A program made the translations under genes and the position numbers. From NCBI GenBank assembly GCA_021730945.1, contig JAKFYH010000029.1, positions 1-64,000 on the forward strand: 64,000 bases of DNA, in the 5' to 3' direction. Position 1 is the stretch's first letter, and each line of letters begins with the position of its first letter. Positions 22,189-62,701 of this stretch are shown here, one piece after another. The notes beneath the pieces are model-generated. The model did not search any database. It was not told the origin of the DNA and saw only the letters and a list, made by a program, of their open reading frames with translations. Source of the stretch: Acidobacteriota bacterium (GTDB taxonomy: Bacteria; Acidobacteriota; Vicinamibacteria; Vicinamibacterales; UBA2999).

Positions 22189-24372
22189 TCACCGCGCGGC
22201 GCGCGACAGTCGCTGGGCCAGCACGGTTTCCGCAATCAAGAGCAGGATACCTGCGAACAACAGATACCACCAGACCCGTTGGGCCAGTTCCTGGGCCGCA
22301 TCAGGTAAGACGTCCTGGGCCCCGGCCGGGCCGGCCACGCCGTTGCCGGTCACGCCGGCCACCAGTTCCTTCGGGTCCATGCGATCGAGGTTTGACTCAG
22401 ACAAGCTCACGTTCGCCGCCGCAACCACGACGGGGCCGGGCTCCCGGCCGGCGGCACGGACCTCGTAGAAGCCCTGCTCGGTCAACTCCAACGCCGACAC
22501 AGAATTATCAGGGGCCGCAGATGGCACAGATGACGCCGGACCATCCGGGGCCGCAGATGACACAGATGACGCAGACAGATCACGGCGCTGCCCTGAGGGG
22601 GTCAGGACCGTGCGGCTGAGGTTGGCCCGCGACGCGGTGGTGGTTGCACCAGCGGCCACCTCCGCGGCGTTGATGTCGAGCACCTCGCCAATCGTCAAGT
22701 ACGCGGGCTGCTCGCGAAAGCCCGACAGGTGCCGGCCCAACTGGTGGATGAACGGCAGGAACACGGGCTTGAGGGCCAGGTCGTTCCAGCCGAGGTCGAA
22801 GGTCGACGCAAACATCACCACGCGGCCGCGGCCCATGGCCTTCTCGACCAGCGCCGGTTCGCCGGTATCGAAGCGCGCGAGTACGGTGGCGCCGGCCGCG
22901 GCCTTGAGCCCGCGATAGGAGTAGAACCGCGCGGTGGTGAAATCGCCGCTGCGCGGCGCGCGGAACGGCTCGAACACCGCATGGCCGTAGTCCATCCCGC
23001 TCAGCTTGGCCGGCGCGCCGCGCGTCCGATCCACCGGCGCCGCAATCACGGCGGGCAGCCACGCCTCGCGGGCCGCCGGCCACGACGCCCTCGGCCCCAG
23101 CGCCATCAGCAACCCGCCGCCGCCTTCGACAAACGTCACCAACTTGGCCGCGGTCGCCTCGGGCACGGCGACGTCGTTCAGGATCAGCAACCGGGCGCGA
23201 CCGGCGGCATCGCCGGCCAGCGCCTCCACCGACTGCAGGGTGGTTTCGAAGCGTGGCGCCTGGCCGATGGCCAGTGCCCCCGACAAATACAGATTCGCCT
23301 CGCTCCGATTGCCCTGCGTGACCACGGTCACCGGCACCGGCGCGCTCGGTGTGATCACGAAGTTGAACACGTTGTCGCGCGCGAGCGCGTCGATCGAGGA
23401 CGACACCGGGGCGACGCCGGTCTGCACCGAGACGCCCTTGGGGACGTCGGTGCCCAGCCGCACCGTGGCGCGGGTCACGGTGGCCGCGATCGAGACCGGC
23501 GCAAACGTCACCGTGGCCGAGGCGTTGCCGGCGACATTGAGCGTCAGTGTCTGGACGATGCGGCCGTCCATTTCGAGTTGCACCGGCACCGCGCTGGCCG
23601 CGGCAGCGGTGCGATTGAGCACACCGGCCGTGACCGTCACCCGCTCGGGCTGCCCGGCGTCACGCGTCCGCAACAGGGTCGCCGGCGTCAGCGCCAGACT
23701 GGGACCCGACGCCCCTTCGACCACGGCGGTGGAGATCATGGTGCCGCCCGGCAATCGCAGCGTGTCGTCGGGCTGCCAGCCGCCGCGCTGAAAGTCCGAC
23801 ACCACGATTACTTCCCGGCGCGGCAACATCGATTCGGCGAGCAGGCTGCCGGCCAGCTTCAGCGCCGGCCCGTACTTGGTCCCGCCAGGGCCGGGAGCGG
23901 CGGCGTTGATCTCGGCGACCGCGCGCGATCGGTCCGGCGTTAGGCGCAAGGCGACTTCGGCGGTGTCGGCGAACAACACGACCGACACCCGATCGGCGGC
24001 CGTGGCACTGGCAATCGCCTCACCGGCCACGCGCTGGGCTCTCGACCACATGTCGCCATAGCCCATGCTGTACGAGCGATCCAGCAACACCACGATGTCG
24101 CGGGCGCCGCCGACCGCGGCGGCGACATCCGACCCGCGCAGGAACGGCCGGGCAAACGCCGCCACGATCAGCGCCAGCGCCGCCAGCCGCAGGGCCAGCA
24201 GCAGCCAGTCGCGGATGCGGCGCTTCTGCACCGACTCGTAAGGAATCTTGCGCAGGAACATCAGCGAGGGAAACGCCACCACCGACTTGCGCTCGCGCTG
24301 GGTCAGGTGCACGAGCACCGGGATGGCGAGTGCGGCGAGGCCCAGCAGGAACAGCGGCGTCAGAAACGACAC
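22189..24372 (-). CDS. BatA-domain/VWA membrane protein
   Basis: The 727-residue protein starts with the BatA (aerotolerance N-terminal) module: membrane helix, PVLVHLTQRERKSVVAFPSL, then a second helix LLLALRLAALALIVAAFARP. A VWA domain follows with MIDAS DRSYSMGYGD (about residue 92). The middle is a beta-rich region with a GATase-like part (residues about 370-560, GGGLLMALGPRASW). The C-terminal membrane span is VWWYLLFAGILLLIAETVL. Residues around 615-640 (SSAAPDGPASSVPSAAPDNS) are encoded by copies of the dispersed 9-base repeat. The stop of the DUF58 gene lies 3 bases before the start. Part of the MoxR operon. Confidence 0.84.
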   Translation of the reverse strand: MSFLTPLFLLGLAALAIPVLVHLTQRERKSVVAFPSLMFLRKIPYESVQKRRIRDWLLLALRLAALALIVAAFARPFLRGSDVAAAVGGARDIVVLLDRSYSMGYGDMWSRAQRVAGEAIASATAADRVSVVLFADTAEVALRLTPDRSRAVAEINAAAPGPGGTKYGPALKLAGSLLAESMLPRREVIVVSDFQRGGWQPDDTLRLPGGTMISTAVVEGASGPSLALTPATLLRTRDAGQPERVTVTAGVLNRTAAAASAVPVQLEMDGRIVQTLTLNVAGNASATVTFAPVSIAATVTRATVRLGTDVPKGVSVQTGVAPVSSSIDALARDNVFNFVITPSAPVPVTVVTQGNRSEANLYLSGALAIGQAPRFETTLQSVEALAGDAAGRARLLILNDVAVPEATAAKLVTFVEGGGGLLMALGPRASWPAAREAWLPAVIAAPVDRTRGAPAKLSGMDYGHAVFEPFRAPRSGDFTTARFYSYRGLKAAAGATVLARFDTGEPALVEKAMGRGRVVMFASTFDLGWNDLALKPVFLPFIHQLGRHLSGFREQPAYLTIGEVLDINAAEVAAGATTTASRANLSRTVLTPSGQRRDLSASSVSSAAPDGPASSVPSAAPDNSVSALELTEQGFYEVRAAGREPGPVVVAAANVSLSESNLDRMDPKELVAGVTGNGVAGPAGAQDVLPDAAQELAQRVWWYLLFAGILLLIAETVLAQRLSRAAR
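22511..22581 (-). repeat. Dispersed 9-bp repeat inside the BatA/VWA gene
   Basis: Two blocks of the CAGATGACR-type repeat (GGGCCGCAGATG followed by ACACAGATGACGCAGA) lie inside the coding sequence. They are read on the minus strand as a Ser/Ala/Pro/Asp-rich linker between the beta-rich part and the C-terminal membrane segment. The same repeat occurs between genes at 30511-30696 and at 51838-51867. Confidence 0.75.
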
Positions 24373-26335: not shown

Positions 26336-26372
26336 AACTTTCAACTGTCAACTTTCAACTGTCAACTTCCGG
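26336..26372. repeat. TTTCAACTGTCAAC direct repeats
   Basis: Three or four copies of a 7- to 14-base AACTTTC/AACTGTC motif lie between MoxR and the upstream DUF4159 gene. A related CAACTTTCAACTCTTC stretch occurs at 62676-62701. The tract lies upstream of the MoxR start; no function can be read from it. Confidence 0.6.
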
Positions 26373-27166: not shown

Positions 27167-29426
27167 GGCGGTACCCCCATTCAGCCGACAGCAGGCCGAC
27201 CAGCAGCATCAGCACGATCGGCATGTGCCACAAATCATGTTCTTCGACCGTGGTCACGCCGCGTCCGGTGTAGCGCAGATCGTCGGCCAGCGTCGTCGTG
27301 CCGGCCGCCTGGTAGTAGCGCCCGCCGGTTTCCTCGGCGATGCGCCGCAAGGTCGCCGCGTGCATGGTGGCATCGAAGAACTCGGCCTCGCCCGGCGCGG
27401 CGCGAAAGTGCGTCACCGTGGTGCCAATGGGCTTGCCGGCGCGGGTGGCCTGCAACCTGGCTTCATACCAGCCCGGCACGGTCGTCGGGACCGCGACCGA
27501 GTACTGACCGGCGTGCTCGCCGTCCCACGACAGCGGCAAATCCGAGATGACGCCGTCGGGACCGGTGACGGTGGCGGTCACGATCGCGTCGTTCAGCTCG
27601 ACAAAGGAGGGATCGACCACGTTGACCACGAGCGTCGCGGACTCACCGGGCTCGACACGCTCGGTGGTGAGCCCAGGCTCCACTTGATCCGGCACGGCAT
27701 CGACGACCGAGCGCAGCAACTGCCGCCAGTAATTCTCGTGGGTCATGTCCTCGACGGGAATGCTGGCGTGCATCTGCCACACCCACGAGTCTTGCGGCAG
27801 GAACGCGAACGACTTGCCGCGGCCGTAGCGCTGGAACGCCAGCATCGGCCGCTCGGCGCGCGATTCGTCGGTGCCGTTCAACAACACCGTCGCACCCGGC
27901 TTGACCGCGTCGACGCGGTTCACCGCGGTGATGCCCGGCAGCGTATTCCAGCGCTCGGCCGACGCCGCCTCGGTCGCGCCCAGTTGAGTGACGGCGGTGG
28001 CGCTGCCGGCACGCGTCGGTTTCACCGTGAGGCGCGAAACGGTATCCCTGGCCTGCACCCTGGTGCGGTCCAGCACCACCGGCAGCACGTCGGCCACGGC
28101 GGTCCCGGCGTAGCCGCCTTCGGCAAATGCGCGTGGGCCGCCCAGGGCCAGCAGGCCGCCACCGCGCAGGTCGACGAACTCCGAGATCATTCGCAGCTGA
28201 TCGCCGGTGAACGCGCCGGCCTCGATGCTGCCGAGAATCAGGCCGCGGTAGGCGAACAGTTCCTCGCGCGTCTTGGGAAAGCCCGCCGCCAGTTCATCCG
28301 GAGAATCGACACCCAGGCGCAGGTACTTATTGTCGGCGGTGCGCTGCAACACCGTGAGCGTCAGGTTGTTGTCGTCCTTGATGGCGCGGCCGATGAACTT
28401 CATCTCCCAACGCGGCTCGCCCTCGAAGTAAAGCACCTTCTCCTTGCGGTCACGCACGTCGATCAGCGCCTCGCGCGCGTTGTTCTCGGTGACCAGCTCG
28501 CCGGGCTGAGGCGACACGCGGAAGCGCAGCACGCGCGGACCGGCTTCGGTCACGGTGAAGCGCACCGGAATGGACGCCGGCGTCCCCGCGTCCGGGAGGA
28601 TGACGGTCTGCGTGCTGACCAGCGTGCCCTCATCCTCGACGTCGAGTGTGATCTGCTGGCCGTCGAAGCCCGACTGCGACAGCACCACATCCACCATCAG
28701 CGTGGTGCCCTTGAGCGTGGTCTTGGGCGTGGTGATGCGGCCGACCTGGATGTCCTTGGACAGTTGTTCCTCGCCCACCCCGACCGTGAACACGGGCAGG
28801 CCCTCGGCCTTCAGCCCGAGCAACGCGTCGCCCAGCGCGGCATCGGCGGTGTCGGCGCCGTCGCTGACCATGACCAGCCCGGCCACCGGCAGGCCGGCCA
28901 GTTCCTGCCGCACGCCGGATAGCGCCGCCCCCAGCCGTGTCTGCGAGCCGGCAAACGCGAGGCCGCCCTCCCCGGTCGTCCGCGCCGGCGCCGATGAGAA
29001 GCGGAACGTGCGCACCGTGAAGCGCTCCGACAACGCCTTCAGCAACGGGGCGTCGGGCGCGGTGAGCTGTTCGGTGATGAACGCCGAACGCGGCTGGCCG
29101 TTGTGGTCGGCAATCTGCATGCTGCGCGAGTCGTCCAGCAGCACGCCGAGGAAGTTCTGCTGGGCCACCGCGGCCTTGACCACCAGCAGCGGGCGGAACA
29201 GGCAGACCAGGATAATGGCCAGCAAGGTGATGCGGATCGCAGCCAGCGCCATGCGGTCGCGCGGCCGGCCGCGCCCCGAGCGATAGGCCGACAGCGTCAG
29301 TCCGACCGCCACCAGCACCGCGACGGCAGCCACGTACGAGCCCGTGGAGGCGGCGAAGCGAAATTCCCCCTGGCTGAAGACCACCGGGGAGAGTTCGAAG
29401 AAGAACTTAAACAGGGCGTCGAACAC
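27147..29426 (-). CDS. Membrane VWA / GATase-like protein at the head of the MoxR operon
   Basis: The 759-residue protein has membrane spans at about 28-48 and 60-80. A VWA-type domain with LLDDSRSMQIAD follows (about residue 97). Then come Ig-like beta regions, a glutamine-amidotransferase-like segment around 400-540 (FAYRGLILGSIEAG, DLRGGGLLALGGPRAFAEGG), and a final membrane helix near the C-terminus (MPIVLMLLVGLLSAEWGYR). This architecture is common in Acidobacteriota and Planctomycetota beside MoxR/DUF58 genes. It is the first gene of the operon, and 62 bases separate it from the divergent PhzF gene, where the promoter must lie. No catalytic Cys nucleophile is visible in the GATase-like part. 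Confidence 0.8.
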   Translation of the reverse strand: MFDALFKFFFELSPVVFSQGEFRFAASTGSYVAAVAVLVAVGLTLSAYRSGRGRPRDRMALAAIRITLLAIILVCLFRPLLVVKAAVAQQNFLGVLLDDSRSMQIADHNGQPRSAFITEQLTAPDAPLLKALSERFTVRTFRFSSAPARTTGEGGLAFAGSQTRLGAALSGVRQELAGLPVAGLVMVSDGADTADAALGDALLGLKAEGLPVFTVGVGEEQLSKDIQVGRITTPKTTLKGTTLMVDVVLSQSGFDGQQITLDVEDEGTLVSTQTVILPDAGTPASIPVRFTVTEAGPRVLRFRVSPQPGELVTENNAREALIDVRDRKEKVLYFEGEPRWEMKFIGRAIKDDNNLTLTVLQRTADNKYLRLGVDSPDELAAGFPKTREELFAYRGLILGSIEAGAFTGDQLRMISEFVDLRGGGLLALGGPRAFAEGGYAGTAVADVLPVVLDRTRVQARDTVSRLTVKPTRAGSATAVTQLGATEAASAERWNTLPGITAVNRVDAVKPGATVLLNGTDESRAERPMLAFQRYGRGKSFAFLPQDSWVWQMHASIPVEDMTHENYWRQLLRSVVDAVPDQVEPGLTTERVEPGESATLVVNVVDPSFVELNDAIVTATVTGPDGVISDLPLSWDGEHAGQYSVAVPTTVPGWYEARLQATRAGKPIGTTVTHFRAAPGEAEFFDATMHAATLRRIAEETGGRYYQAAGTTTLADDLRYTGRGVTTVEEHDLWHMPIVLMLLVGLLSAEWGYRRVVGLA

Positions 29427-29488
29427 TAATAACTCGGATTCTACTTCTAACTTGGGCGCGACCCAGTCATTGCTCTACGCTAGGCGGC

Positions 29489-30496
29489 ATGAGACTGCTT
29501 ACCCGCCGCTCCTGGATGAGCCTGTCGGCCGCCGCTTTCCCGGCCATGGCCCTGCCCCGCGCCGTCCAGCCCCAACCGATCAGACGCCCCATCGTCACCA
29601 ACGGCCGCCGCTATCTCCACTACGACGTCTTCACCCAGACGCCGCTCACCGGCAATCAACTGGCGGTTTTCACCGACCCGTCGGGCCTGACCGCGGCCCA
29701 GATGCAGGCGATGACGCGCGAAACCAAGTTCTCTGAATGCACCTTCGTCCAGCCGGCCGAACGGGCCGGCACCGACGTGCGGCTGCGCATCTTCGGACCC
29801 GCCAACGAAATGCAGTTCGCCGGTCATCCCGTGATCGGCTCCGCCTTCGCGCTGGCCGACGATGGCGTGATCGCGGCAGGGAGAAAGGACTTCACCTTTG
29901 GCCTGGGGATTGGCCCCACCCTGGTCGAGCTGGAATGGCAGGGCGACCGGCTGCAATTCGCGTGGATGACGCAACAGAAGCCGGTGTTCGGCCCCACCTT
30001 CGCCGCGCCGGCGCCACTGGCCGCGGCGCTCGGCCTCGACAGCTCGGCGCTCGCCCCCGGACTGCTGCCCCAGGAGGTCTCGTGCGGCTCGCCGTTCATG
30101 TTCGTGCCGCTCGTGTCGCGGGCCGCCGTCGATCAGGCCGTGGTGGACACGCGTGCTGTCGCGGCTGCCTTCGAGGCGGCCAAGCTGACGCGCCGCGGCC
30201 TGTTCATCTTCTCGACCGAGCCCGGCGCGGACGGCGCCACGTGCTATAGCCGCATGATGGGCGCCAACGAGGACCCGGCCACCGGATCGGCGAGCGGGCC
30301 GCTTGGCTGCTATCTCGTGAAACACGGACTGGTGGCCGCCGGCCAGGCCGGCGCCATGGTCAGCGCGCAGGGCGTGAAGATGGGCCGCCCCAGCCGCATC
30401 CACATCAGACTGGATGTCGTCGCCGGTGACATTACTCGCGTGCGCGTCGGCGGGACCAGCGTCCTTGTCGGCGAAGGCCAACTCAGATCGTCCTGA
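29489..30496 (+). CDS. PhzF-family isomerase-like protein with an export signal
   Basis: The 335-residue protein shows the PhzF signature: HYDVFTQTPLTGNQLAVF, the catalytic glutamate in FSECTFV, FAGHPVIGSAFAL and NEDPATGSASGPLGCYL. PhzF enzymes fold as diaminopimelate-epimerase-like dimers and isomerise dihydro-hydroxyanthranilate or related substrates; most members are of unknown substrate. Unusually, about 35 extra residues precede the domain, with RRSWMSLSAAAFPAMALPRA, resembling a Tat-type signal. No phenazine genes are near. The gene is divergent from the MoxR operon. Confidence 0.82.
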   Translation: MRLLTRRSWMSLSAAAFPAMALPRAVQPQPIRRPIVTNGRRYLHYDVFTQTPLTGNQLAVFTDPSGLTAAQMQAMTRETKFSECTFVQPAERAGTDVRLRIFGPANEMQFAGHPVIGSAFALADDGVIAAGRKDFTFGLGIGPTLVELEWQGDRLQFAWMTQQKPVFGPTFAAPAPLAAALGLDSSALAPGLLPQEVSCGSPFMFVPLVSRAAVDQAVVDTRAVAAAFEAAKLTRRGLFIFSTEPGADGATCYSRMMGANEDPATGSASGPLGCYLVKHGLVAAGQAGAMVSAQGVKMGRPSRIHIRLDVVAGDITRVRVGGTSVLVGEGQLRSS

Positions 30497-30510
30497 CCCG
30501 CGCGTCAGTC

Positions 30511-30696
30511 GGGCCACAGATGACGCAGATGACGCAGATACACGCCCGACCCGCGGGTCGAGCCGCCGTTTGGCGGCGCGCTCTCCCCCGCCAATCTGTG
30601 ACTAATCGGTGCCTAATCTGCGGCCGCTTCGGATCTGTGTCATCTGTGTCATCTGCGGCCCTGGGTGAGACGTGTCATCTGCGTCATCTGCGGCCC
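30511..30696. repeat. Inverted blocks of the dispersed 9-bp repeat
   Basis: On the left (30511-30540) the unit GACGCAGAT is repeated after GGGCCACA. On the right (30632-30696) the opposite orientation occurs twice (ATCTGTGTC and ATCTGCGTC units ending CTGCGGCC). The blocks can form a long imperfect hairpin around a GC-rich core with CGACCCGCGGGTCG. Degenerate units (CTAATCTGCGG) lie between. The tract occupies most of the gap between the PhzF and aminotransferase genes. No coding signal is seen. Confidence 0.8.
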
Positions 30697-30760
30697 CCGT
30701 CGACTCGGCGAGCGCTGGCGCCCTCACCTCGCTCAGGGCGGGCTGGTGATAGACTCGGAC

Positions 30761-31822
30761 ATGCTCGCTACTTCCATCCCTGTCTCTAAAACCTCTGCGT
30801 CGCGGCTGACGCCGGAACTCCGCGACAAATCTGCGTTCGGTGCGGTCTTCAGCGATCACATGCTGGTGGCCGACTATGCGAACGGCACCTGGGGCGACCC
30901 GAAGATCGTGCCCTATGGCGCCCAGATGATGGCCGCGGCCCCGGCCGTGGCGCACTACGGCCAGGGCATCTTCGAGGGCTTCAAGGCGTTTCCGCGATCC
31001 GGCGGCGGCGCGGTGCTGTTTCGCCCCGATGCCAACCACGCCCGCATGAACCGAACGTGCCAGCGCATGGCGATGCCAGAGATTCCGGCGTCGATCTTCA
31101 TCGACGGCACGGCCGCCCTGGTGCAGCTCGATCGCAACTGGATCCCTGAAAGCGACGGCGCGGCGCTCTACATTCGTCCGGTGATGTTCGCCACCGGCGA
31201 GCCGCTCGGCGTGCGGCCGTCCGATACCTTCCGCTTCATTATTGAGACCTGCCCGAGCGGGCCGTATTTCTCCGGCGCCGTGGATCTGATCGCGGAAGAC
31301 GTCTACGTGCGCGCGTTCCCGGGCGGCACCGGCGCCGCCAAGTGCGGCGGCAACTATGCCGGCAGCATGCTCGCCTCGCTCGAGGCGCAGAAGAAGGGCT
31401 TCCACAACGTGCTGTGGCTCGACGGCATCGAGCGCAAGTGGGTGGAGGAAGCCGGCCTGATGAACGTGGTCTTCGTGATCGGCGGCACCGTGGTCACGCC
31501 CCCGCTCGGCGGCACTATTCTTCCGGGCATTACGCGCGACAGCGTGCTGACCCTGCTGCGCGACATGAAGGTGCCGGTCGAAGAGCGCCGCATCTCGATC
31601 GACGAAGTGTTCGAGGCACACGCCGCCGGCCGGCTCGACGGCGCGGCAGGAGTTGGCACGGCGGCGGTGATTGCGCCGCTGGGGCGCCTGCGTCACAAAG
31701 ATCGCGAGATCACCGTCAAGCCGATGGCGCCCGATTCCGTTCTGGCCAGGGTGGGCGCCGAACTCGAAGGCATCCGCTCGGGCCGCCTGGCCGACCGTCA
31801 CGGGTGGCTGCTGGCGATTTAG
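30761..31822 (+). CDS. ilvE: Branched-chain amino acid aminotransferase
   Basis: The 353-residue fold-type IV PLP aminotransferase transfers the amino group of Val, Leu or Ile to 2-oxoglutarate. The catalytic lysine is in GGTGAAKCGGNYAGSM, and the late motifs GLMNVVFV, LPGITRDSV and AAGVGTAAVIAP match the long BCAT subgroup. I use the ATG at 30761; the open frame extends 32 codons upstream into the dispersed repeat and is not typical of the family. A GTG at 30746 is another option. It stands alone, without other ilv genes in the window. Confidence 0.92.
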   Translation: MLATSIPVSKTSASRLTPELRDKSAFGAVFSDHMLVADYANGTWGDPKIVPYGAQMMAAAPAVAHYGQGIFEGFKAFPRSGGGAVLFRPDANHARMNRTCQRMAMPEIPASIFIDGTAALVQLDRNWIPESDGAALYIRPVMFATGEPLGVRPSDTFRFIIETCPSGPYFSGAVDLIAEDVYVRAFPGGTGAAKCGGNYAGSMLASLEAQKKGFHNVLWLDGIERKWVEEAGLMNVVFVIGGTVVTPPLGGTILPGITRDSVLTLLRDMKVPVEERRISIDEVFEAHAAGRLDGAAGVGTAAVIAPLGRLRHKDREITVKPMAPDSVLARVGAELEGIRSGRLADRHGWLLAI

Positions 31823-31829
31823 GTCCTGC

Positions 31830-31880
31830 GTCCTGGGTCCTCAGTCCTCAGTCCTGGGCTCAGGACTCGGGACCCAGGAC
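31830..31880. terminator. Bidirectional hairpin between ilvE and ypdA
   Basis: An 11-base perfect inverted repeat, GTCCTGGGTCC (31830-31840) and GGACCCAGGAC (31870-31880), with further pairing of internal CAGTCCT-type repeats, fills the 61-base gap between two convergent genes. It consists of tandem TCCTCAG-like units, so it belongs to the repeat-rich spacers and may also act as a two-way terminator. Confidence 0.55.
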
Positions 31881-31883
31881 CCC

Positions 31884-32882
31884 TTATTGGCGAGCGGCCA
31901 GCGTCTTGGCGATCATCTCGCCGTGGAAGCGGCCGTTCTCTATAAACACGGTGCCGGTCTTCTTCCCCGCGACCTGCCCGCCCGCGACGAACAGCCCGGG
32001 CACGTTTGATTCGTAGGTCTGGGCATCAAGCCTGGGCTCCAGCGTCTCGGCATTGATTTCAACTCCCACCCGCCGCATGAAGTCCGGATCGGCGCGATAG
32101 CCGGTCAAGAGCAGCACGCCTTCGGCCGGCAGCGTCTGGCCGGTATCGAGCACGACCTCGGTCGGGCGAATCTCGACGATGTTCGCGTTGAAGTGGGCGG
32201 CGATCGAACCTTCCTTGACCCGGTTCTCGATGTCGGGCTTGACCCAGTACTTGATCGAGTCGCCGAACGCGGCGCCGCGATGCACGATCGTGACGTGGCC
32301 ACCGGCGCGGTGGATCTCGAGCGCCGCTTCGGCCGCCGAGTTCTTGCCGCCGACAATCACCACGCGCTGCCGGTAATAGGGGTGCGCTTCCTTGTAGAAG
32401 TGCGAGACATGCGGCAGGTCTTCCCCTGGGATATTCAACATGACCGGCGCACCGTAGTACCCCATGGCCAAGACCACGTTGCGGGCTTCGCGCACCCGCG
32501 TCACCCCGCGCACAGTGCGCGTGTGCACCAGAAACAGACTGGTCACGCCGGCCTCGGCGGCGGCCTCGGCAGAGGCGGCCTCCACTTCCGTCACCTCTTC
32601 GAACAGCGAGACCTGCAACTGAAAGGTGTCGACCACCTTCCGGTAGTACTGCAGCGCCTCGGCCCGCGTCGGTTTGTCGTACGGCGTCGTGAGCGGAATG
32701 CCGCCAATCTCGAGCAGCTCGGGCGTAGTGAAGAACACCATGTTGAGGGGAAACCGGGCGATGCCGTCCACCAACGAGCCCTTTTCAAGCACCAGGTAGT
32801 CGAGACCGAAATGTTTGGCAGCGATGGCGGTGGCCAGGCCCGAGGGCCCGGCGCCGACGATGACGACGTCGCGAATGGACAT
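31884..32882 (-). CDS. ypdA: YpdA-family bacillithiol-disulfide reductase-like flavoprotein
   Basis: The 332-residue protein has an N-terminal FAD-binding motif VIVGAGPSGLATAIAAK and a second nucleotide-binding motif VVIVGGKNSAAEAALEI (about residue 172). It lacks a CxxC redox pair, as YpdA/Bdr proteins do. The family uses NADPH to reduce bacillithiol disulfide. I start at the ATG at 32882; the frame is open 118 codons further, but that part is antisense to the repeat and signal-peptide region of the next gene. This hints that the organism uses bacillithiol, but no bsh biosynthesis genes are in the window. A ferredoxin-NADP reductase of similar fold is the alternative. Confidence 0.78.
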   Translation of the reverse strand: MSIRDVVIVGAGPSGLATAIAAKHFGLDYLVLEKGSLVDGIARFPLNMVFFTTPELLEIGGIPLTTPYDKPTRAEALQYYRKVVDTFQLQVSLFEEVTEVEAASAEAAAEAGVTSLFLVHTRTVRGVTRVREARNVVLAMGYYGAPVMLNIPGEDLPHVSHFYKEAHPYYRQRVVIVGGKNSAAEAALEIHRAGGHVTIVHRGAAFGDSIKYWVKPDIENRVKEGSIAAHFNANIVEIRPTEVVLDTGQTLPAEGVLLLTGYRADPDFMRRVGVEINAETLEPRLDAQTYESNVPGLFVAGGQVAGKKTGTVFIENGRFHGEMIAKTLAARQ

Positions 32883-32931
32883 GCCCGATGATTGTAACTT
32901 CACGTGTAGACTACCGGCCGTGGAGTGACCT

Positions 32932-35763
32932 ATGCGCGTCGTAACTTGTGTCGCGTTGGCCAGTGGGTTCCTGTCTGCGTTATCTGCGTTATCTGCGTCA
33001 TCTGCGGCATCTGCGGCACCTGCGGCACAACAGACCGGCGCGCCGCAATCGGTGTTCCGGGCCGGCGTCGAGCTGGTCAGCGTCGATGTCACCGCCCTCG
33101 ACGGCAACGGCCGCCAGGTCACCGACCTGGCCGCTACTGACTTCACGGTCGAGGTGGACGGCGACCTTCGCCAGGTAGTCTCGGCCGAATATGTGCGTTC
33201 GGTTGACCCGCTCCGCGTGATCGGCGCGCCGCGCAAGGTCGCCGCCGCGCCCGACGAGACCTACTTCACGTCGAACGCCAAGGGCGCGCCGAGCGGCCGG
33301 CTGATCCTGCTGCTGATCGATCAAGGCAACATCCGCACCGGCGCCGCCCGCGCCGCCATGAACAGCGCCAAGAAATTCGTCGACACGCTGACCCCCGAAG
33401 ACCGCGTGGCGGTGGTCGCCGTGCCGGGTCCGGGCGAGCTGGTGGACTTCACCACCAATCACGATCAAGTGCGGGAGGCCTTGCTACGAGTCGTCGGCAG
33501 CGCCGACCCGCTCACCGGCCGCTTCAACCTCAGTGTCAGCGAAGCGCTGGCTATCTACACGCGCAACAATCTCCAATTGGCGGTCGAAACGATCGCCCGG
33601 GAGTGCGGCGCGCTGTCGCCGGCCAACTTCGAGCGTTGCGAGCGCGAAGTCGAACAGGACGCCGCGCAGATGGCGGCGGAAATCCGGCAGCGCACCGACG
33701 CCTCGGTCCGCGGCATGCTCGCGGTGTTCAAGGGCATGGCCGGCGTCGAGGGGCCCAAGTCGGTGGTGATGGTGTCGGAAGGCCTGGTCTTCGAGGGAAT
33801 CGGCGGCGAAACCGACCTGCTGGCGTCGGCGGCCGCCGACGCCCGCGCCACGCTCGACGTGCTGTTGCTCGATGTGCCGCCGATCGATGTCGCGCAGCGC
33901 GAGCGTCCCAACACGCCACGCGAAGACCGCGCCTTGCAGGTCACCGGGCTCGAGATGCTGGCCGGCGCCGCGCGGGGGTCGCTGTATCGCATCAACACCA
34001 CCGCCGAGTACGCCTTCGACCGCATCTCGCGGGCAATCGACGGCTTCTACCTGCTCGGCGTCGAATCGCGTCCCGACGATCGCAACGGCCGCCGCCATGG
34101 CATCTCGGTCAAGACCGCACGCCGCGGCGTCACCATTCGATCGCGACGCAGCTTCCTCACCTCGGTGTCCGCCAAGGCGACGACGCCGGCCGACGCGGTG
34201 ACGCGGGCGTTGAAGTCGCTGCTGCCGATCAACGACCTGCCGCTGAAGGTGGCGACCTGGACCTACAAGGAACCGGGCACCTCACGCGTCCGCGTGCTGG
34301 TCGCCGCCGAGGTGGAACGGCTGGCCGATCAGCCGCTCGACTACACCGCCGGCATGTTGCTGGTGAACAAGGCCGGCCGCGGCCTGGCGCCGCCGGTCGG
34401 ACCGCGCACGCTCACCGCGAAGACCGGCGATCCCGGCACGGCGGTGTTCTCGGTCTCGATCGCGATCGATCCCGGCGAGTACCGGCTGATCCTGTCGATG
34501 GCCGACAGCGAAGGGCGGGTCGGCAGCGTCTCGCGGCTGGTCACGGCGTGGCAATTGGACGGCCCCGCTCTTTCGATCGGCGATCTGATCGTGGGAGCCT
34601 CGAACGATGGCGCGGCCACCGCGATCGTGCCGGCCATCGAACCGGCGATCGGCGGCGGCCAGATGGCGGCGCTGGTCGAGATCTACGGCACGGCCGCGCA
34701 GTTGACCGGCGTCGAGGCCACACTGGAGATCCTGTCGCACGAGGACGCCGCACCACTGGCGAGTGTCCCCATGCACATCGCCGCCGGCCCGGCGCCGGAG
34801 ATTCTCGCCGGCAGCGCCCAGTTCGCCACCACCGCGCTGCCGCCCGGCCGCTACCTGGCGCGCAGCACCATCCGCCAGGGCGGCAAGGCGCAGGGTCACA
34901 TGATCCGGCCGTTCCGCATCCTCACTGGCACGCCGTCGCTGACCGACGGCGCACCGGCCGCGGCCTCGGGCGGCGCGATGCCGGCCGAGATGGTGATGGT
35001 GCTGCGCGGCGGCGTCGCCAACTTCGATCGCAAGGAACTGCTCACGCCGGCGGCGCTGACGCCGGTGTTCGCGGCCGCCGAGGCGCGCGCGACCGCGTCA
35101 AAGGCCGCGGTGAAGGAGGCGCGCGGTGGCGACCTGGGATCGGCGGCCATGACCGCGCTTGGCGACGGCGACCAGGCGCTGGCGGCGTTCCTCAAGGGTT
35201 TGGAACTCTTGCAGGCCACGCAACTGGATAAGGCTGCCGTGCAATTCCAAAGCGCCATGCAAAGCGCCCCCACCTTCCTGCCGGCGCGGCTCTATCTTGG
35301 CGCCGTCCTCGCCGAGGCCAACCGCCACGGCGATGCCGCCGGACTGCTGCAAAGCGCCGCCGGTTCCCCGCCGAACGCCGCCGCCGCACGGCTGGCTGGC
35401 GAGGAGTGGATTAAGGCCGGGCAACCGGCGTTGGCGATTGCGCCGCTGGAACTGGCGGTGCAGCAACCCGGCGCCGATCCGCGCGCGAGCAAGCTCCTGG
35501 GGTTGGCCTACGTCCTTGGTGGACGCGCGGCCGACGCGGTGGCCACACTGACGCCGTATCTCGAGAACCATCCAACGGATCATGCGGCGCAACTCGCGGC
35601 GATCTTCGGCATCTACATGCGTCACCTGGGAGTGCCACAGCCGGCGACGCTGGCTGTGGACCAGGCGAACATGGCCAAGTGGTCGAAGGCCTACACCGCG
35701 TCCAAGGGCGCGATGCAGCCGCTCGTGGCCGCCTGGGTCGCGCACGTGCGGGGCTTGAAGTAG
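32932..35763 (+). CDS. Secreted acidobacterial VWFA-related protein with C-terminal TPRs
   Basis: The 943-residue protein has a signal peptide, then the VWFA-related domain found mainly in Acidobacteriota. The domain starts FRAGVELVSVDVTALDGNGR and includes DFTVEVDGDLR, LILLLIDQGNIR and VVMVSEGLVFEG. It is followed by a beta-rich middle and, from about residue 740, several TPR-like helical repeats (LQATQLDKAAVQFQSAMQ, FLPARLYLGAVLAEANRHGD). Residues 15-32 of the signal peptide are encoded by six copies of a 9-base repeat. The role is probably extracellular or periplasmic protein binding; no enzymatic residues are seen. Confidence 0.87.
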   Translation: MRVVTCVALASGFLSALSALSASSAASAAPAAQQTGAPQSVFRAGVELVSVDVTALDGNGRQVTDLAATDFTVEVDGDLRQVVSAEYVRSVDPLRVIGAPRKVAAAPDETYFTSNAKGAPSGRLILLLIDQGNIRTGAARAAMNSAKKFVDTLTPEDRVAVVAVPGPGELVDFTTNHDQVREALLRVVGSADPLTGRFNLSVSEALAIYTRNNLQLAVETIARECGALSPANFERCEREVEQDAAQMAAEIRQRTDASVRGMLAVFKGMAGVEGPKSVVMVSEGLVFEGIGGETDLLASAAADARATLDVLLLDVPPIDVAQRERPNTPREDRALQVTGLEMLAGAARGSLYRINTTAEYAFDRISRAIDGFYLLGVESRPDDRNGRRHGISVKTARRGVTIRSRRSFLTSVSAKATTPADAVTRALKSLLPINDLPLKVATWTYKEPGTSRVRVLVAAEVERLADQPLDYTAGMLLVNKAGRGLAPPVGPRTLTAKTGDPGTAVFSVSIAIDPGEYRLILSMADSEGRVGSVSRLVTAWQLDGPALSIGDLIVGASNDGAATAIVPAIEPAIGGGQMAALVEIYGTAAQLTGVEATLEILSHEDAAPLASVPMHIAAGPAPEILAGSAQFATTALPPGRYLARSTIRQGGKAQGHMIRPFRILTGTPSLTDGAPAAASGGAMPAEMVMVLRGGVANFDRKELLTPAALTPVFAAAEARATASKAAVKEARGGDLGSAAMTALGDGDQALAAFLKGLELLQATQLDKAAVQFQSAMQSAPTFLPARLYLGAVLAEANRHGDAAGLLQSAAGSPPNAAAARLAGEEWIKAGQPALAIAPLELAVQQPGADPRASKLLGLAYVLGGRAADAVATLTPYLENHPTDHAAQLAAIFGIYMRHLGVPQPATLAVDQANMAKWSKAYTASKGAMQPLVAAWVAHVRGLK
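32974..33027 (+). repeat. Six tandem 9-bp repeats encoding part of a signal peptide
   Basis: Six contiguous units TCTGCGTTA, TCTGCGTTA, TCTGCGTCA, TCTGCGGCA, TCTGCGGCA, CCTGCGGCA run in frame with the VWFA gene. They encode residues 15-32 (Ser-Ala-Leu/Ser/Ala triplets), providing the hydrophobic end and the Ala-x-Ala cleavage region of the leader. The same unit is non-coding at 30632-30696 and 51838-51867. Confidence 0.85.
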
Positions 35764-35872
35764 GGCGGCGCTGCGCGCCGTGGGGCTCGGGCGCGTCGCG
35801 CCCTCGTGGGAGTCGCTCGCGATCGCTCGCTCCTGGGGGCTGCCCCACGAGGCGCGCCAGCGCCGAGCCCTA
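35761..35872. terminator. Long hairpin between convergent genes
   Basis: An extended inverted repeat pairs TAGGGC-GGCGCTG-CGCGCC plus GTGGGGC (35761-35786) with GCCCCAC and GGCGCGCCAGCGCCGAGCCCTA (35842-35872), with small bulges. It includes the stop codon of the VWFA gene and precedes the convergent aminotransferase end. The interior holds further GCGATCGC-type symmetry. It likely terminates both transcripts or stabilises their 3-prime ends. Confidence 0.6.
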
Positions 35873-35905
35873 CAAGAGGCGAAGCCGCGAGCCCCACGGT
35901 GGGCG

Positions 35906-37213
35906 CTAGCCCACCGCCTGGTCCGTGATCGACAGCCCCTTGTCGATAATCGCAAACGCCTCGGCCAGCTCGGCCTCGGTAATGCACAGCGGCGGGTTGG
36001 TGAAAAACGTGTTCCACCGCACGAAAGTGTAGAGGCCCTCGTCGCGGAAGAACTTGCCAAGCGCCGCCATCTCGGGCGAGCCGCCGTTATACGGCGCCAT
36101 CGGTTCCCTGGTCGTGCGGTTGCGAATCAGTTCGAAGATGCCGAACAGGCCGATGTTACGGACGGCGCCGACACACGGATGCTTGGCCTTGAGTTCGACC
36201 ATCATCTTCCCCATCACCACGCCCATCGCCTTGGCGCGCTCAATCAGGTCGTCTTCCTCGTAGACCGCGAGCGTGGCGAGCGCGGCGGCACAGCCGAGCG
36301 GATGGCTGTTGTAGGTCAGGCCGCCAAACAGCACCTTCTGCTGGAAGTGATCGGCGATCCCCTGCCGCACGCCGACCGCGCCGAGTGGCACGTAGGCGCT
36401 CGTCAGGCCCTTGGCCATGGTGATGATGTCGGGGACGATCTTCCAGTGATCGACCGCAAACCACGCCCCGGTCCGGCCGAAGCCGGACATCACTTCGTCG
36501 GCGATCAGCATGATGCCGTGCTTGTCACAGAGCGCGCGGACGCCTTCGAGGTAGCCGTCGGGCGGAATCAGGATGCCGTTGGTGCCGGTCACGGTCTCGA
36601 GAATGAATCCCGCGATCGTCTGCGGGCCCTCCATCATGATGATCTCCTCGAGGATCGCCAGCGCCGCCTCGGCGGTGTCCGAACCGCGCTCCACGCCGTG
36701 GTAGTGATGCGGCACCCGGACAACGCCGGGAATGCCCGGTTCAGCGGCCCATCGCCGCGGATCGCTGGTCAACGTGAGCGCGCCGGCCGTGCCGCCGTGA
36801 TACGAACGATAGCGGGTGAGGATCTTGTGACGACCCGTGTACATCCGCGCAATGCGAATGGCGTTTTCCGCCGCTTCGGCGCCGCCGTTGGTGAAGAAGA
36901 ACACGTTGATGTCGCCCGGGCAAATCTCGGCCAGCTTCTGCCCCAGCCGGGCCCGCGGCTCGGTCGCCATGAACGGGTTGGCATAGGCGAGGGTGGCCGC
37001 CTGGTCCTGGATCGCCTTGATCACGCGGGCATCGCCGTGGCCGATGTTGACGCACATCAACTGGCTGTTGAAGTCGATGAACCGCTTGCCTTCCGGCGTC
37101 CAGAAGTAAATGCCCTTCGCTTTCGCGACGGGAATGGGATCGACATTCGCCTGCGCTGACCACTCGTAGAGCGAGTGCTGTTTCGACAGCGCCACCATTT
37201 CTTGTCCGGTCAT
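35906..37213 (-). CDS. Class III PLP aminotransferase
   Basis: The 435-residue protein is a class III (omega) aminotransferase. It has the PLP lysine in DIITMAKGLTSAYVPLG, the cofactor aspartate in MLIADEVMSGFGRTG, and NGGAEAAENAIRIAR and RYRSYHGGT for phosphate binding. Full length is normal for the family. The LMCVNIGHGDARVIKAI and HHYHGVERG segments resemble taurine-, beta-alanine- or putrescine-type aminotransferases, but the substrate cannot be fixed by eye. An M20 hydrolase, ureohydrolase and class I aminotransferase are close by, which suggests amine or amino-acid catabolism. Confidence 0.87.
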   Translation of the reverse strand: MTGQEMVALSKQHSLYEWSAQANVDPIPVAKAKGIYFWTPEGKRFIDFNSQLMCVNIGHGDARVIKAIQDQAATLAYANPFMATEPRARLGQKLAEICPGDINVFFFTNGGAEAAENAIRIARMYTGRHKILTRYRSYHGGTAGALTLTSDPRRWAAEPGIPGVVRVPHHYHGVERGSDTAEAALAILEEIIMMEGPQTIAGFILETVTGTNGILIPPDGYLEGVRALCDKHGIMLIADEVMSGFGRTGAWFAVDHWKIVPDIITMAKGLTSAYVPLGAVGVRQGIADHFQQKVLFGGLTYNSHPLGCAAALATLAVYEEDDLIERAKAMGVVMGKMMVELKAKHPCVGAVRNIGLFGIFELIRNRTTREPMAPYNGGSPEMAALGKFFRDEGLYTFVRWNTFFTNPPLCITEAELAEAFAIIDKGLSITDQAVG

Positions 37214-38729: not shown

Positions 38730-38865
38730 ATCCCGACCAGCAATGCCCTCCCGACAAGAAGTGCCCTCCCGACAAGAAGTGCCCTCCCGACAAGAAGTGC
38801 CCTCCCGACAAGAAGTGCCCTCCCGACAAGAAGTGCCCTCCCGATAAGAAGTGCCTCCCGGCAAG
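38730..38865. repeat. 18-bp tandem repeat array (left copy)
   Basis: Six units of GTGCCCTCCCGACAAGAA (the first with A in place of the initial G, the last with GATAAG) run from 38743 to 38850. They are preceded by ATCCCGACCAGC and followed by a shortened unit GTGCCTCCCGGCAAG. The array fills the gap between the divergent M20 hydrolase and SDR genes. A second array with the same unit and the same flanks lies at 41692-41791. The units are contiguous with no spacers. Confidence 0.9.
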
Positions 38866-38877
38866 TATCATGTAGGC

Positions 38878-39657
38878 ATGTTTCGACTGGACGGCAAGAC
38901 TATCGCAGTGATCGGCGCGGGTTCGGGTATTGGGCAAGCCGTGGCGCTCGGCGTGGCCCAACAGGGCGGCCATACTCTCTGCCTCGACATCAACCCCGTC
39001 AACGCGACCGCGACGGCGGACCTCATTGGCAAGGCCGGCGGCTCGGCAGCGGCGGGCGCGATTGATATCGCCGATGAAGTCTCGGTGCGCGACGCACTCG
39101 CGGACGCGCTGCGCGGTCGCGGCGGTCTCGACGGGCTGGTGTGCACACCCGCCATCAACGTTCGCAAGACCATCCTGACGTACACGGGCGAGGAGTTCGA
39201 CCGCGTGGTGCGCGTTAACCTGCGCGGCAACTTCAACGTGCTGCAGGCGGCTGGCCATCTGATGGTGCAACAGAAGTCTGGCAGCATCGTGTTGTTCTCG
39301 TCGATCCGCTCGCTGGTGACCGAACCCGGGCAATCGGTCTACTCCATGACGAAGGCCGGCATCGTGCAACTGGTGCGCACCGCCGCCACCGAGTGGGGCC
39401 AGCTGGGCGTGCGGGTCAACGCCGTCGGTCCGGGCGTGATCGAAACGCCGCTCACGGCGCCAATCAAGGCGCAGCCGGCGTGGTACCAGGCCTACGCCGA
39501 CAAGACGCCGATGAAGCGCTGGGCCCAGGCGTCCGAGATGGCTGGCCCCACGGTGTTCCTGCTGTCGGACGCGGCCAGCTACGTGACCGGCACCATCCTG
39601 TTCGCCGATGGCGGCTGGCTGGCCAACGACGGGCGATTTACGCCGCCGGGGATGTAG
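38878..39657 (+). CDS. Short-chain dehydrogenase/reductase
   Basis: The protein has 259 residues from the ATG at 38878. The cofactor motif is VIGAGSGIGQAVALG (about residues 9-23). The catalytic Ser lies in VLFSSIRS and the Tyr/Lys pair in YSMTKAG (about 156-162). The end motif AASYVTGTILFADGGWLAND is typical of classical SDRs that reduce or oxidise sugars, ketones or acyl chains with NAD(P)H. The substrate cannot be told. The start is preceded by the 18-base array, and the first nine codons of the longer frame come from it. The next gene follows after a GGTGCT repeat. Confidence 0.9.
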   Translation: MFRLDGKTIAVIGAGSGIGQAVALGVAQQGGHTLCLDINPVNATATADLIGKAGGSAAAGAIDIADEVSVRDALADALRGRGGLDGLVCTPAINVRKTILTYTGEEFDRVVRVNLRGNFNVLQAAGHLMVQQKSGSIVLFSSIRSLVTEPGQSVYSMTKAGIVQLVRTAATEWGQLGVRVNAVGPGVIETPLTAPIKAQPAWYQAYADKTPMKRWAQASEMAGPTVFLLSDAASYVTGTILFADGGWLANDGRFTPPGM

Positions 39658-39712
39658 GGTGCTCGGGTGCTAGGGTGCTCGGGTGCCAGGGTGCTGAAGT
39701 GCTAGGGTGCAC
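39657..39712 (+). repeat. GGGTGCTC/GGGTGCTA tandem repeat
   Basis: Six or seven imperfect 8- to 9-base units (GGGTGCTC, GGGTGCTA, GGGTGCCA, AAGTGCTA, GGGTGCAC) fill the gap between the SDR and ureohydrolase genes. The last unit supplies the GTG start codon of the ureohydrolase. Confidence 0.75.
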
Positions 39713-41692: not shown

Positions 41693-41791
41693 TCCCGACC
41701 AGCCGTGCCCTCCCGACAAGAGGTGCCCTCCCGACAAGAAGTGCCCTCCCGACAAGAGGTGCCCTCCCGTCTGGAAGGCACCTCCCGGCAG
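41692..41791. repeat. 18-bp tandem repeat array (right copy)
   Basis: ATCCCGACCAGC is followed by three good units of GTGCCCTCCCGACAAGAG/A (41705-41758), a decayed fourth unit ending TCTGGAA, and a closing GGCACCTCCCGGCAG. It matches the left array at 38730 in unit, order and both flanks, but has fewer copies. It lies between the convergent aminotransferase and TPR genes. Confidence 0.9.
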
Positions 41792-51749: not shown

Positions 51750-51754
51750 GTCGG

Positions 51755-51801
51755 GGATCAGGGATCGGGGATCGGGGATCAGGGTTCGGGGATCAGGGAT
51801 T
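51755..51801. repeat. GGGGATCAGGGATC tandem repeat
   Basis: Six imperfect 7- to 8-base units of GGGATCA/GGGATCG sit just upstream of the GT2 start codon, between it and the end of the convergently placed tail of the acyltransferase. No known function. Confidence 0.7.
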
Positions 51802-51817: not shown

Positions 51818-52579
51818 TCAGAAGAACCCGACGGCAGCATCTGTGTCATCTGCGTCATCTGTGGCCCTTGATCTAGGTTCTATCTTACGCGCAGGAATAC
51901 CGGCATAGATAGCAGATCCTTCGAGCGTCGAACCCTTGAGCACGACGCTCAGAGCGCCAATCTGGCACTTCTCGCCGGCCTCGACATTGATGCCCACCAT
52001 GCTGCCCAGGCCGACGGTGACAAAGCGGCCGAGCCGGACCGGGCCGGTCTTGACCATGCCGGCCTCGACGGTATGTCCCGACAGGTGCACGCTCTCGCCA
52101 ATCACGACGCCGTCGCCAAACTCCAGCATGTTGTGATCGGAGATCGACAGGCTGTTGATGTGCACGCCGCGGCCGATGCGGGCGCCGTTCCAGCGCATGT
52201 ACAGGGTCCACAAGGCCGACGCCCGAAAGAAGGTGCCGACAAACACGCGCACGATGTGCGTCGACACCATGTAGCGCACCCAGTCGAGCAGCGGCCATTC
52301 GAGGTCGCGCAGCTTCCAGGCGCCGTTGGCGGCCGTCCGCCAGCCGCAGACCCGCGTCGATAGCGCCGACAGCGCCACCAGGACAATCGCGAACAACAGG
52401 TAGGCCGGCACCAGGGTGGTGGCGACAATCGCCGGCCGAATGAATGCCGGGACGCTCCAGGTCAGGGTCCAGGTCCAGAAATAGAAGGCCGGCAGCACCG
52501 ACAGGCCGAACACCAGGCTCTGCACCACGAACATGGTCAACACCGTCCACGCCACTCGGCCGGCTTGCGCGGGAGTCAC
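51818..52579 (-). CDS. Membrane-anchored left-handed beta-helix acyltransferase
   Basis: The protein has 253 residues from the GTG at 52579; the long upstream frame is antisense to the next gene. Two N-terminal membrane helices (about 15-40 and 46-68) are followed by a hexapeptide-repeat (LbetaH) domain: GRGVHINSLSISDHNMLEFG, GESVHLSGHTVEAGM and a closing AIYAGIPARKIEP. This is typical of CoA- or ACP-dependent O-acetyltransferases. The last about 16 residues (RATDDADDTDAAVGFF) are encoded by the dispersed 9-base repeat and are not part of the fold. It is divergent from the hydrolase gene. Confidence 0.8.
   Translation of the reverse strand: MTPAQAGRVAWTVLTMFVVQSLVFGLSVLPAFYFWTWTLTWSVPAFIRPAIVATTLVPAYLLFAIVLVALSALSTRVCGWRTAANGAWKLRDLEWPLLDWVRYMVSTHIVRVFVGTFFRASALWTLYMRWNGARIGRGVHINSLSISDHNMLEFGDGVVIGESVHLSGHTVEAGMVKTGPVRLGRFVTVGLGSMVGINVEAGEKCQIGALSVVLKGSTLEGSAIYAGIPARKIEPRSRATDDADDTDAAVGFF
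51838..51867 (-). repeat. Dispersed 9-bp repeat forming the 3-prime end of a gene
   Basis: Three units (ATCTGTGTC, ATCTGCGTC, ATCTGTGGC) are read on the minus strand as the Asp/Ala-rich tail of the acyltransferase. The repeat lies 18 bases from its stop codon. Confidence 0.8.
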
Positions 52580-52603
52580 GGCGAGAAGGTAGCATAAGCA
52601 TTG

Positions 52604-53317
52604 ATGGCCGCGCCGAAAGAGCCCCTGGTACTCGTACCCGGCATCGATGGCACCGGCCTCCTGTTCTACCGGCAGGTCCCCGGCCTCGAGGCCAGGTTCA
52701 CCGTGACCACGACCCGGCTGCGTGACGAGGCGGGGTCGATGGATGAACTGGTCGCCGACCTGCATCGCTCGGTCTCGGCGGCGGCGGACGGCCCCGTCAC
52801 CCTGCTGGGCGAGTCGTTCGGCGGCGCGCTGGCCCTCAGCTATGCCCTCGCCCACCCCGACCGGGTCGGCCGGCTGGTAATCCTCAACTCCTTCGCGCAC
52901 TTCGGATCGCCGGGCCGCCTGTGGCTTGGCTATCACCTGCTGCGCGCCACGCCGTGGGGCATGATGCGGCTGGTGCGGCAACTGAACGGCCGCCGGATGC
53001 ACTCGCCCGGCACCGACCCGGAGGAGATCCGCCACTTCCTCGAACTGATGCAGCACACCACTCGCGCGGGTTACCTGTCGCGGCTTCAGATTCTGCGCGG
53101 CTACGACCTTCGCGACCGGTTGCCGGCGATTCAGGCGCCGGTCTTGTACCTGGCCGCCGACCGTGATGTGCTGGTCCCCTCGGTGGACCAGGCGCGCTTG
53201 ATGACGTCGCTGACGCCACGTGCCAGCATGCGGATACTCGAAGGCCACGGCCACAGCTGCCTGATCGCCCCGGGCCTTGACCTGTCGGCTATCCTCGACG
53301 AGTGGCTCACCGAATGA
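52604..53317 (+). CDS. Alpha/beta hydrolase
   Basis: The protein has 237 residues from the ATG at 52604 (a TTG one codon earlier is possible). The catalytic triad is visible as GESFGGA (Ser, about residue 68), AADRDVLVPS (Asp, about 187) and EGHGHSCL (His, about 213), with the oxyanion strand VLVPGIDGTG near the start. It likely hydrolyses an ester or thioester. The stop overlaps the next ATG by 4 bases (ATGA), coupling it to a CoA-transferase-like gene. Confidence 0.85.
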   Translation: MAAPKEPLVLVPGIDGTGLLFYRQVPGLEARFTVTTTRLRDEAGSMDELVADLHRSVSAAADGPVTLLGESFGGALALSYALAHPDRVGRLVILNSFAHFGSPGRLWLGYHLLRATPWGMMRLVRQLNGRRMHSPGTDPEEIRHFLELMQHTTRAGYLSRLQILRGYDLRDRLPAIQAPVLYLAADRDVLVPSVDQARLMTSLTPRASMRILEGHGHSCLIAPGLDLSAILDEWLTE

Positions 53318-62639: not shown

Positions 62640-62701
62640 TTTAAAAACTGAAACTGAAACTAAAACTGAAACTCCCAACTTTCAACTCTTCAACTTTCAA
62701 C
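62640..62701. repeat. AACTGA/AACTTTC short tandem repeats
   Basis: The gap between the two upstream genes of this operon contains five copies of GAAACT/AAAACT followed by CAACTTTCAACT-type units. The AACTTTC part also occurs at 26336-26372. It is AT-rich compared with its surroundings. Confidence 0.7.

Follow-up and report, generated by a model that had tools for sequence, protein, structure and literature searches.

The array of 9-bp repeats in the leader of a VWA-domain protein gene from an Acidobacteriota genome is probably a single arm of a palindromic element that is dispersed between genes. This arm would have landed in frame in the unconstrained stretch that follows the leader's hydrophobic core and precedes the mature VWA domain. 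The unusual leader is thus likely to be an instance of a broader spread of the repeat, and not a signal built for secretion. All positions refer to the window, the whole stretch of 64,000 nucleotides that was analysed. The gene and its surroundings contain the following features.

31884-32882, minus strand: FAD/NAD-dependent reductase gene, divergent neighbour and synteny marker (PF13738, 245 bits)
32922-32925, plus strand: GGAG, likely ribosome-binding site, 6 nt 5' of the ATG (direct reading)
32932-35763, plus strand: gene for a 943-aa secreted-type VWA-domain protein whose C-terminal part is TPR-like (profile matches)
32932-32973, plus strand: residues 1-14 (MRVVTCVALASGFL), n-region and hydrophobic core, 5' of the array
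32974-33027, plus strand: in-frame array, a single arm, residues 15-32 (SAL SAL SAS SAA SAA PAA)

The array reads TCTGCGTTA TCTGCGTTA TCTGCGTCA TCTGCGGCA TCTGCGGCA CCTGCGGCA, with a GTCA end in the third unit and a CCT start in the sixth. Its frame is that of the ATG at 32932, and it codes for residues 15-32 of MRVVTCVALASGFLSALSALSASSAASAAPAAQQ. TRF found a period of 9 and 5.7 copies, and the sequence and TRF thus agree with the first-pass annotation, which had described six 9-bp units placed exactly in frame. Three TCTG[CT]G hexamers spaced 9 bp apart occur seven times in the window and not once in any of 100 dinucleotide-preserving shuffles. Genome-wide, the pattern of a 9-bp pair has 319 matches and its reversed control none. 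The leader array is therefore not a product of chance, and the repeat is found elsewhere in the genome, as the annotation's reading supposed. A hairpin role for the array was ruled out by an RNA fold z of 0.13.

TIGR03436 (acidobact_VWFA) scores 87.6 bits on the 943-aa protein against a cut-off of 81.25, and PF14559 (TPR_19) scores 24.4 bits, slightly below its cut-off of 25. The ATG at 32932 is the earliest possible start, with an in-frame TGA at 32926-32928. Genes were predicted with a simple codon-usage script, which starts the VWA gene at 33052, after the array. This choice, and the caution voiced in PMC3733652 that many NH2-terminal REPs may be extragenic, would fit an untranslated array that lies as an upstream element ahead of a real start further downstream. 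We regard this as very improbable, since GGAG precedes the ATG at 32932, the position matches the starts of the signal-peptide-like leaders of relatives, and a start at 33052 would give no leader. By eye, reductase-start-like sequence is also present upstream of the relatives L010-L017. Inverted halves of a GTCCTGG-type heptamer repeat lie at 31823-31890, between an aminotransferase gene and the reductase gene.

The leader, which contains several A-x-A motifs, has a composition that fits a putative Sec/SPase I signal peptide (basic n-region, hydrophobic core, A-x-A). Its core (residues 3-13) lies ahead of the array, and its maximum 11-residue hydropathy is slightly weaker than that of eight relatives (2.13 vs 2.42-2.97). 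Relatives were sampled as one genome per species. The best matches in 25 other genomes (34-80 % identical) gave 26 loci, our own included, for the 9-bp pair; nine leaders (our own and L010-L017) were aligned, and L018 (partial), L032 (start missing), L037 and L038 were set aside from the leader comparison. The pair was absent from all 25 other loci between 350 bp upstream of the match and 200 bp into it. The residues ahead of the conserved VFR[AT]G number 40 in our protein and 29, 28, 33, 26, 34, 40, 25 and 44 in L010-L017. The stretch is thus shorter, at 25-34 residues, in six of the eight relatives, all of which lack the pair, but it reaches 40 in one and 44 in another. The 40-residue leader of L015 owes its length to another repeat, heptamers of the CCCAAG type that encode PSPKPQVPSPKPQ.

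At the junction, AVLASASFLSA of L010 corresponds by eye to VALASGFLSA of our leader. The ancestral LSA|Q site is visible in L010 and L011, and the first two codons of the array (SA) coincide with the SA of FLSA|Q. MAFFT put the gap elsewhere than this by-eye junction. On the by-eye reading, TCTGCG of the first unit would be the SA of the ancestral site, and the further units would have been added after it. An ordinary leader would remain without those units, because the core is upstream and SA falls on the ancestral site. The proposal of the first-pass annotation, that a repeat was captured as a secretion leader and that the unit number could tune this leader, draws on the fact that the array covers residues 15-32 with many A-x-A sites, and on another gene, described below, in which the repeat seemingly gives the start codon and n-region. 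Given the core ahead of the array and the ordinary array-free leaders of relatives, we consider it distinctly unlikely. Capture itself is supported to the extent that an intergenic repeat was taken into the leader frame at one of the 26 loci, our own; that the array would itself be the export signal is not supported by these sequences.

The same junction bears on whether the array grew locally, as a microsatellite, from an Ala/Ser-rich c-region and only converged with the dispersed repeat. TTCCTGTCGGCG in L010 is one base apart from TTCCTGTCTGCG in our leader, an insert in a BatA-like gene of the window also begins at CTGTCTGCG, and pure 9-bp units are prone to slippage. Because the flanks have diverged and no clean empty site was found, the array may have been born at a pre-existing CTGTC[T/G]GCG. 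We nevertheless think local growth unlikely, as the Ser codons of the leader array are those of the element (TCT in five of six, TCA in one) and unlike the TCG and AGC favoured by genes in the window, and several internal copies in other genes bear the element end GGCCCTGG, translated AALG.

A gap upstream of the related gene in L010, L011, L013, L014 and L015 contains, by eye, heptamers that differ by species (GGGTCCC, GGGAGTC, GGGCTCC, GGGCTAC and GGGGCTT). Different heptamers in the same gap indicate that this spot changes repeat family between species. Elsewhere in the window, 6-8-bp repeats were seen at 26336-26368, 39655-39710, 51754-51800 and 62645-62702, and two arrays of an 18-bp unit, TCCCGACAAGA[A/G]GTGCCC, at 38731-38865 and 41693-41769 (94 and 91 percent matched).

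The 9-bp unit is part of a palindromic element that is dispersed between genes, and it lies in the arms of this element. Compact copies are about 60-110 bp long, for example ACCGCAGATGACGCAGATGCCGCAGAT..ATCTGCGAAATCTGCGTCATCTGCGGT. Three copies in the window other than the leader array are relevant.

22498-22575, minus strand: in-frame copy in a BatA-like VWA gene (22189-24372, minus strand), peptide SASSVSSAAPDGPASSVPSAAP
30511-30696, no strand assigned: expanded palindromic copy between two genes, a minus-type arm followed by a plus-type arm (sequence)
51840-51863, plus strand: copy where a gene predicted on the minus strand (51818-53254) has its 3' end; it encodes ATDDADDTDAAVGFF and a stop

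The first-pass annotation had called the unit non-coding elsewhere in the window, which holds for the copy at 30511-30696 and fails for the coding copies at 22498-22575 and 51840-51863. Compact palindromes occur in distant Acidobacteriota families, often directly past a stop codon in the stretches read. Single-stranded DNA folding was applied to eight copies; six came from such families, and the other two from assemblies labelled Caulobacteraceae and Chloroflexi. All eight gave z between -6.9 and -11.1 with none of 200 shuffles as good. Their stems are long, with an outer helix of 12-23 bp that continues inwards. Folded in the same way, the copy at 30511-30696 gave z -5.0, again with 0/200 shuffles as good. 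In the own genome the arms are approximately CCAGGGCCGCAGATGACACAGATGACGCAGA in tandem with a locus-specific spacer, in most of ten stretches inspected. The largest array (L048:1816-3067) is two-armed, has 62 units by the stricter count or 76 by the looser one, and occupies about 1.25 kb between two divergent genes. The minus-type arm came first in the two-armed copies read, and no fixed orientation relative to neighbouring genes was seen among 80 arrays of the window and 60 stretches. The history of the element looks like insertion followed by local duplication.

Compact copies have MITE-like traits: they are short, have terminal inverted repeats and are without a gene of their own. Among the loci of relatives, whose flanks have diverged, none offered an exact empty site with clean junctions. 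No transposase could be linked to the repeat. Counts of Y1 (RAYT-type) transposases did not follow repeat presence in 19 genomes; G220 has repeats and no Y1 gene, and G004 has five Y1 genes and no repeats. An ORF between distant arms was considered as the parent transposase and rejected, the 133-aa ORF of L181 being PD-(D/E)XK nuclease-like. No Rfam family reaches its gathering score within 29000-36500. Viral contigs gave no exact match to one 26-bp pattern, and with the low-complexity filter on, blastn gave no match for one 91-bp palindromic copy in plasmids or for one 201-bp copy in phages.

The pattern ATCTGCGTNATCTGCG was present in 35 of 396 genomes and 18 of 210 genera of a phylum sample, abundant in some genomes and absent from their sisters, and its NN form in 20 of 43 genomes of the family. 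When named genomes were scanned for one 27-bp pattern, 23 stretches matched, 15 in Acidobacteriota assemblies and the rest in assemblies labelled Symbiobacteriaceae (four), Verrucomicrobia, Caulobacteraceae, Chloroflexi and Bacteroides (one each). Since all 23 are metagenome-assembled, contamination is possible.

Arrays were read in the window and in the 60 stretches, which surround listed matches and cover a part of the 319. Of 80 arrays, 25 overlap predicted genes by at least 15 bp and 55 were called intergenic, the leader array among them because the simple caller starts its gene late. Fourteen of the 25 lie at gene ends (nine N-terminal, five C-terminal) and 11 are internal. Leaders are thus not special among the insertion sites; the internal copies, for example in UvrA and ParA, also count against a repeat captured for secretion. 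Family scans identified as hosts UvrA, ParA, GltD (glutamate synthase small subunit), a COX1-type oxidase, STT3 and DUF1015 proteins, and further NuoF-like, NuoG/formate dehydrogenase-like, HupE-like and BatA-like VWA proteins; one more is weakly like DNA polymerase IV. SASSASSAALGK is an example of an insert peptide.

The insert sites are length-variable in alignments. The ParA insert is missing from 11 of 12 aligned relatives and is shorter in L115 (G006); L127 (partial) and L128 (distant) were left out of this alignment. The DUF1015 insert of about 50 residues is missing from 14/14 aligned relatives, one of which, L137, has a short Ser/Ala stretch, and the Ser-Ala array of the BatA-like protein is missing from all nine aligned relatives (L227 and L228, at 36 % identity, were omitted). 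UvrA is a less clean case, its loop varying in all 14 relatives, with DDADDTD in L100 and L105 and a Ser/Ala stretch in L104. PDB relatives of UvrA, ParA and GltD are without the insert stretch in the alignments shown. Two DUF1015 relatives, L134 and L135, carry the peptides AEGRRQK and AEGNRDK in the same loop, which resemble a 7-bp repeat read in three frames. A second genus (G036, 20 stretches) provided ten internal cases, four at gene ends and ten intergenic arrays. One internal case is in UvrA, directly ahead of the interaction domain, and another is in an acyltransferase, where it separates the lipoyl domain from an E3-binding match that stays below its cut-off; one host gene of G036 is weakly predicted.

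The coding copies are biased in reading frame, spacing and codons. Internal units of the own genome are read as Ser-Ala-x in 88 of 104 cases and as Ala-Asp-Asp in 11, and the other four frames share five. In G036 the frames are Ser-Ala-x (51 of 73), Ala-Asp-Asp (11), Leu-Arg-His (6) and Gln-Met-Thr (5). For the spacing and frame counts, 12 internal arrays were used, with the leader array set as genic by hand. Spacings other than 9 bp are divisible by three in 35/40 cases within genes vs 67/157 between genes (Fisher p 2.6e-7); the five exceptions within genes are long gaps of 28-67 bp that may involve unrelated hexamers. In the internal arrays of nine genes, a set without ParA, GltD and the leader, 134 of 148 serines are encoded by TCT or TCA. 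These codons are otherwise rare, with 85 of 944 in the predicted genes of the window. From these signatures, it is most likely that the Ser/Ala segments were made by element DNA and not by codon-by-codon selection for Ser and Ala, and that selection then kept the fitting ones.

The repeat may also provide starts of genes. The gene of a PF01042 protein with a signal-peptide-like leader (L084/L207) begins MTQMTQIPRVLAVLAVVFAAAPAAAQKIERINPPG, in which MTQMTQI is encoded by repeat DNA. Its relative in G005 (L208) begins MRVAFILAVLFTAQTAAAQKIERINPPG, and the protein starts MRVAFILAV vs MTQMTQIPRV in the own genome. Start codon and n-region of this gene thus seem to come from the repeat, which makes it a better case for a captured leader than the VWA gene, but translation might begin at a GTG slightly downstream. 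Five more predicted N-termini read MTQMTQ or MTQITQ from the repeat (L046:5696, L049:1575, L051:12243, L070:2025 and L096:2008).

Inserts of this kind are already known, among them Rickettsia palindromic elements (RPEs) and intragenic REPs including uvrA insertions. RPEs are dispersed palindromes of 100-150 bp found in frame in unrelated metabolic and housekeeping genes, and the parts they encode are reported in solvent-exposed places (PMC3767692, PMC10969869). The present element shares the in-frame position within unrelated genes of these classes, but it belongs to another sequence family, with a 9-bp unit in tandem arms, mostly Ser-Ala-x products and a home in Acidobacteriota. GTAG- and CGTC-tagged REPs are mostly intergenic, often near 3' ends, with some in frame in genes, among them uvrA of Thioalkalivibrio and O. 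terrae, as dimers or clusters that code for 20-30 or 43-82 aa (PMC3733652). Here too copies are mainly intergenic with some in-frame genic ones, and uvrA is among the hosts. The CGTC type is without a linked transposase, and RPE-4/RPE-6 is a CGTC-tagged REP whose stem of 8-9 bp carries CGTC at one end and has a loop of 4-5 nt (PMC3733652). Stems and loops are longer in the eight folded copies of our element, although CGTC occurs within its arms, and no GTAG terminus was seen by eye in the printed copies. PARCEL (palindromic amphipathic repeat coding elements), a 25-residue amphipathic motif in ORFs without assigned functions, is likewise a patchy, coding palindromic tandem repeat, partly in membrane-targeted proteins (PMC2996958); the products of the present element are instead Ser/Ala or Asp/Ala spacers, and its hosts include known housekeeping proteins. 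The heptameric repeats of Xanthomonas and Nostoc have a 7-bp G-rich unit dispersed mainly between genes (PMC4692102), a similar short-unit, chiefly intergenic dispersal with a different unit, and such heptamers beside the relatives of the VWA gene are another family. Searches of the open-access literature, which leaves subscription papers uncovered, found no report of this family by exact repeat strings or, among the matches listed, by Acidobacteria repeats. The element looks like a further family of in-frame palindromic inserts, in Acidobacteriota.

Copies of the element would arrive by some transposition or recombination, and most insertions into genes would be lost. Survivors would have a total length that is a multiple of three, would be read as Ser-Ala-x or, from the opposite strand, as Ala-Asp-Asp, and would be located where length can vary, in a loop, linker or leader. 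With a unit of 9 bp, any subsequent slippage would stay in frame. At the VWA gene, the array would lengthen the Ser/Ala c-region and linker and offer many candidate A-x-A sites, without being the export signal itself. A bolder proposal, which we put forward tentatively and consider possible rather than likely, is that a mobile palindrome of 9-bp units acts as a genome-wide, frame-safe spacer generator: its arms would insert and then grow or shrink in steps of three residues, give Ser/Ala or Asp/Ala linkers according to orientation, provide start codons (ATGACGCAG) where the palindrome abuts a gene, and have repeatedly lengthened loops of the same proteins (UvrA in at least two genera) and leaders of secreted proteins.

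Rickettsia and some REP-rich bacteria are the best-known hosts of in-frame palindromic inserts. A simple reason why such inserts would be tolerated here is that the unit length is divisible by three and that two of the frames are harmless. Ser/Ala-rich low-complexity inserts and MTQMTQ starts in the annotation of these genomes may be repeat DNA. With such a family one could test how non-coding repeats turn into protein linkers and leaders, at what rate spacers change in length, and whether DNA-repair and partition proteins such as UvrA and ParA bear such inserts without loss.
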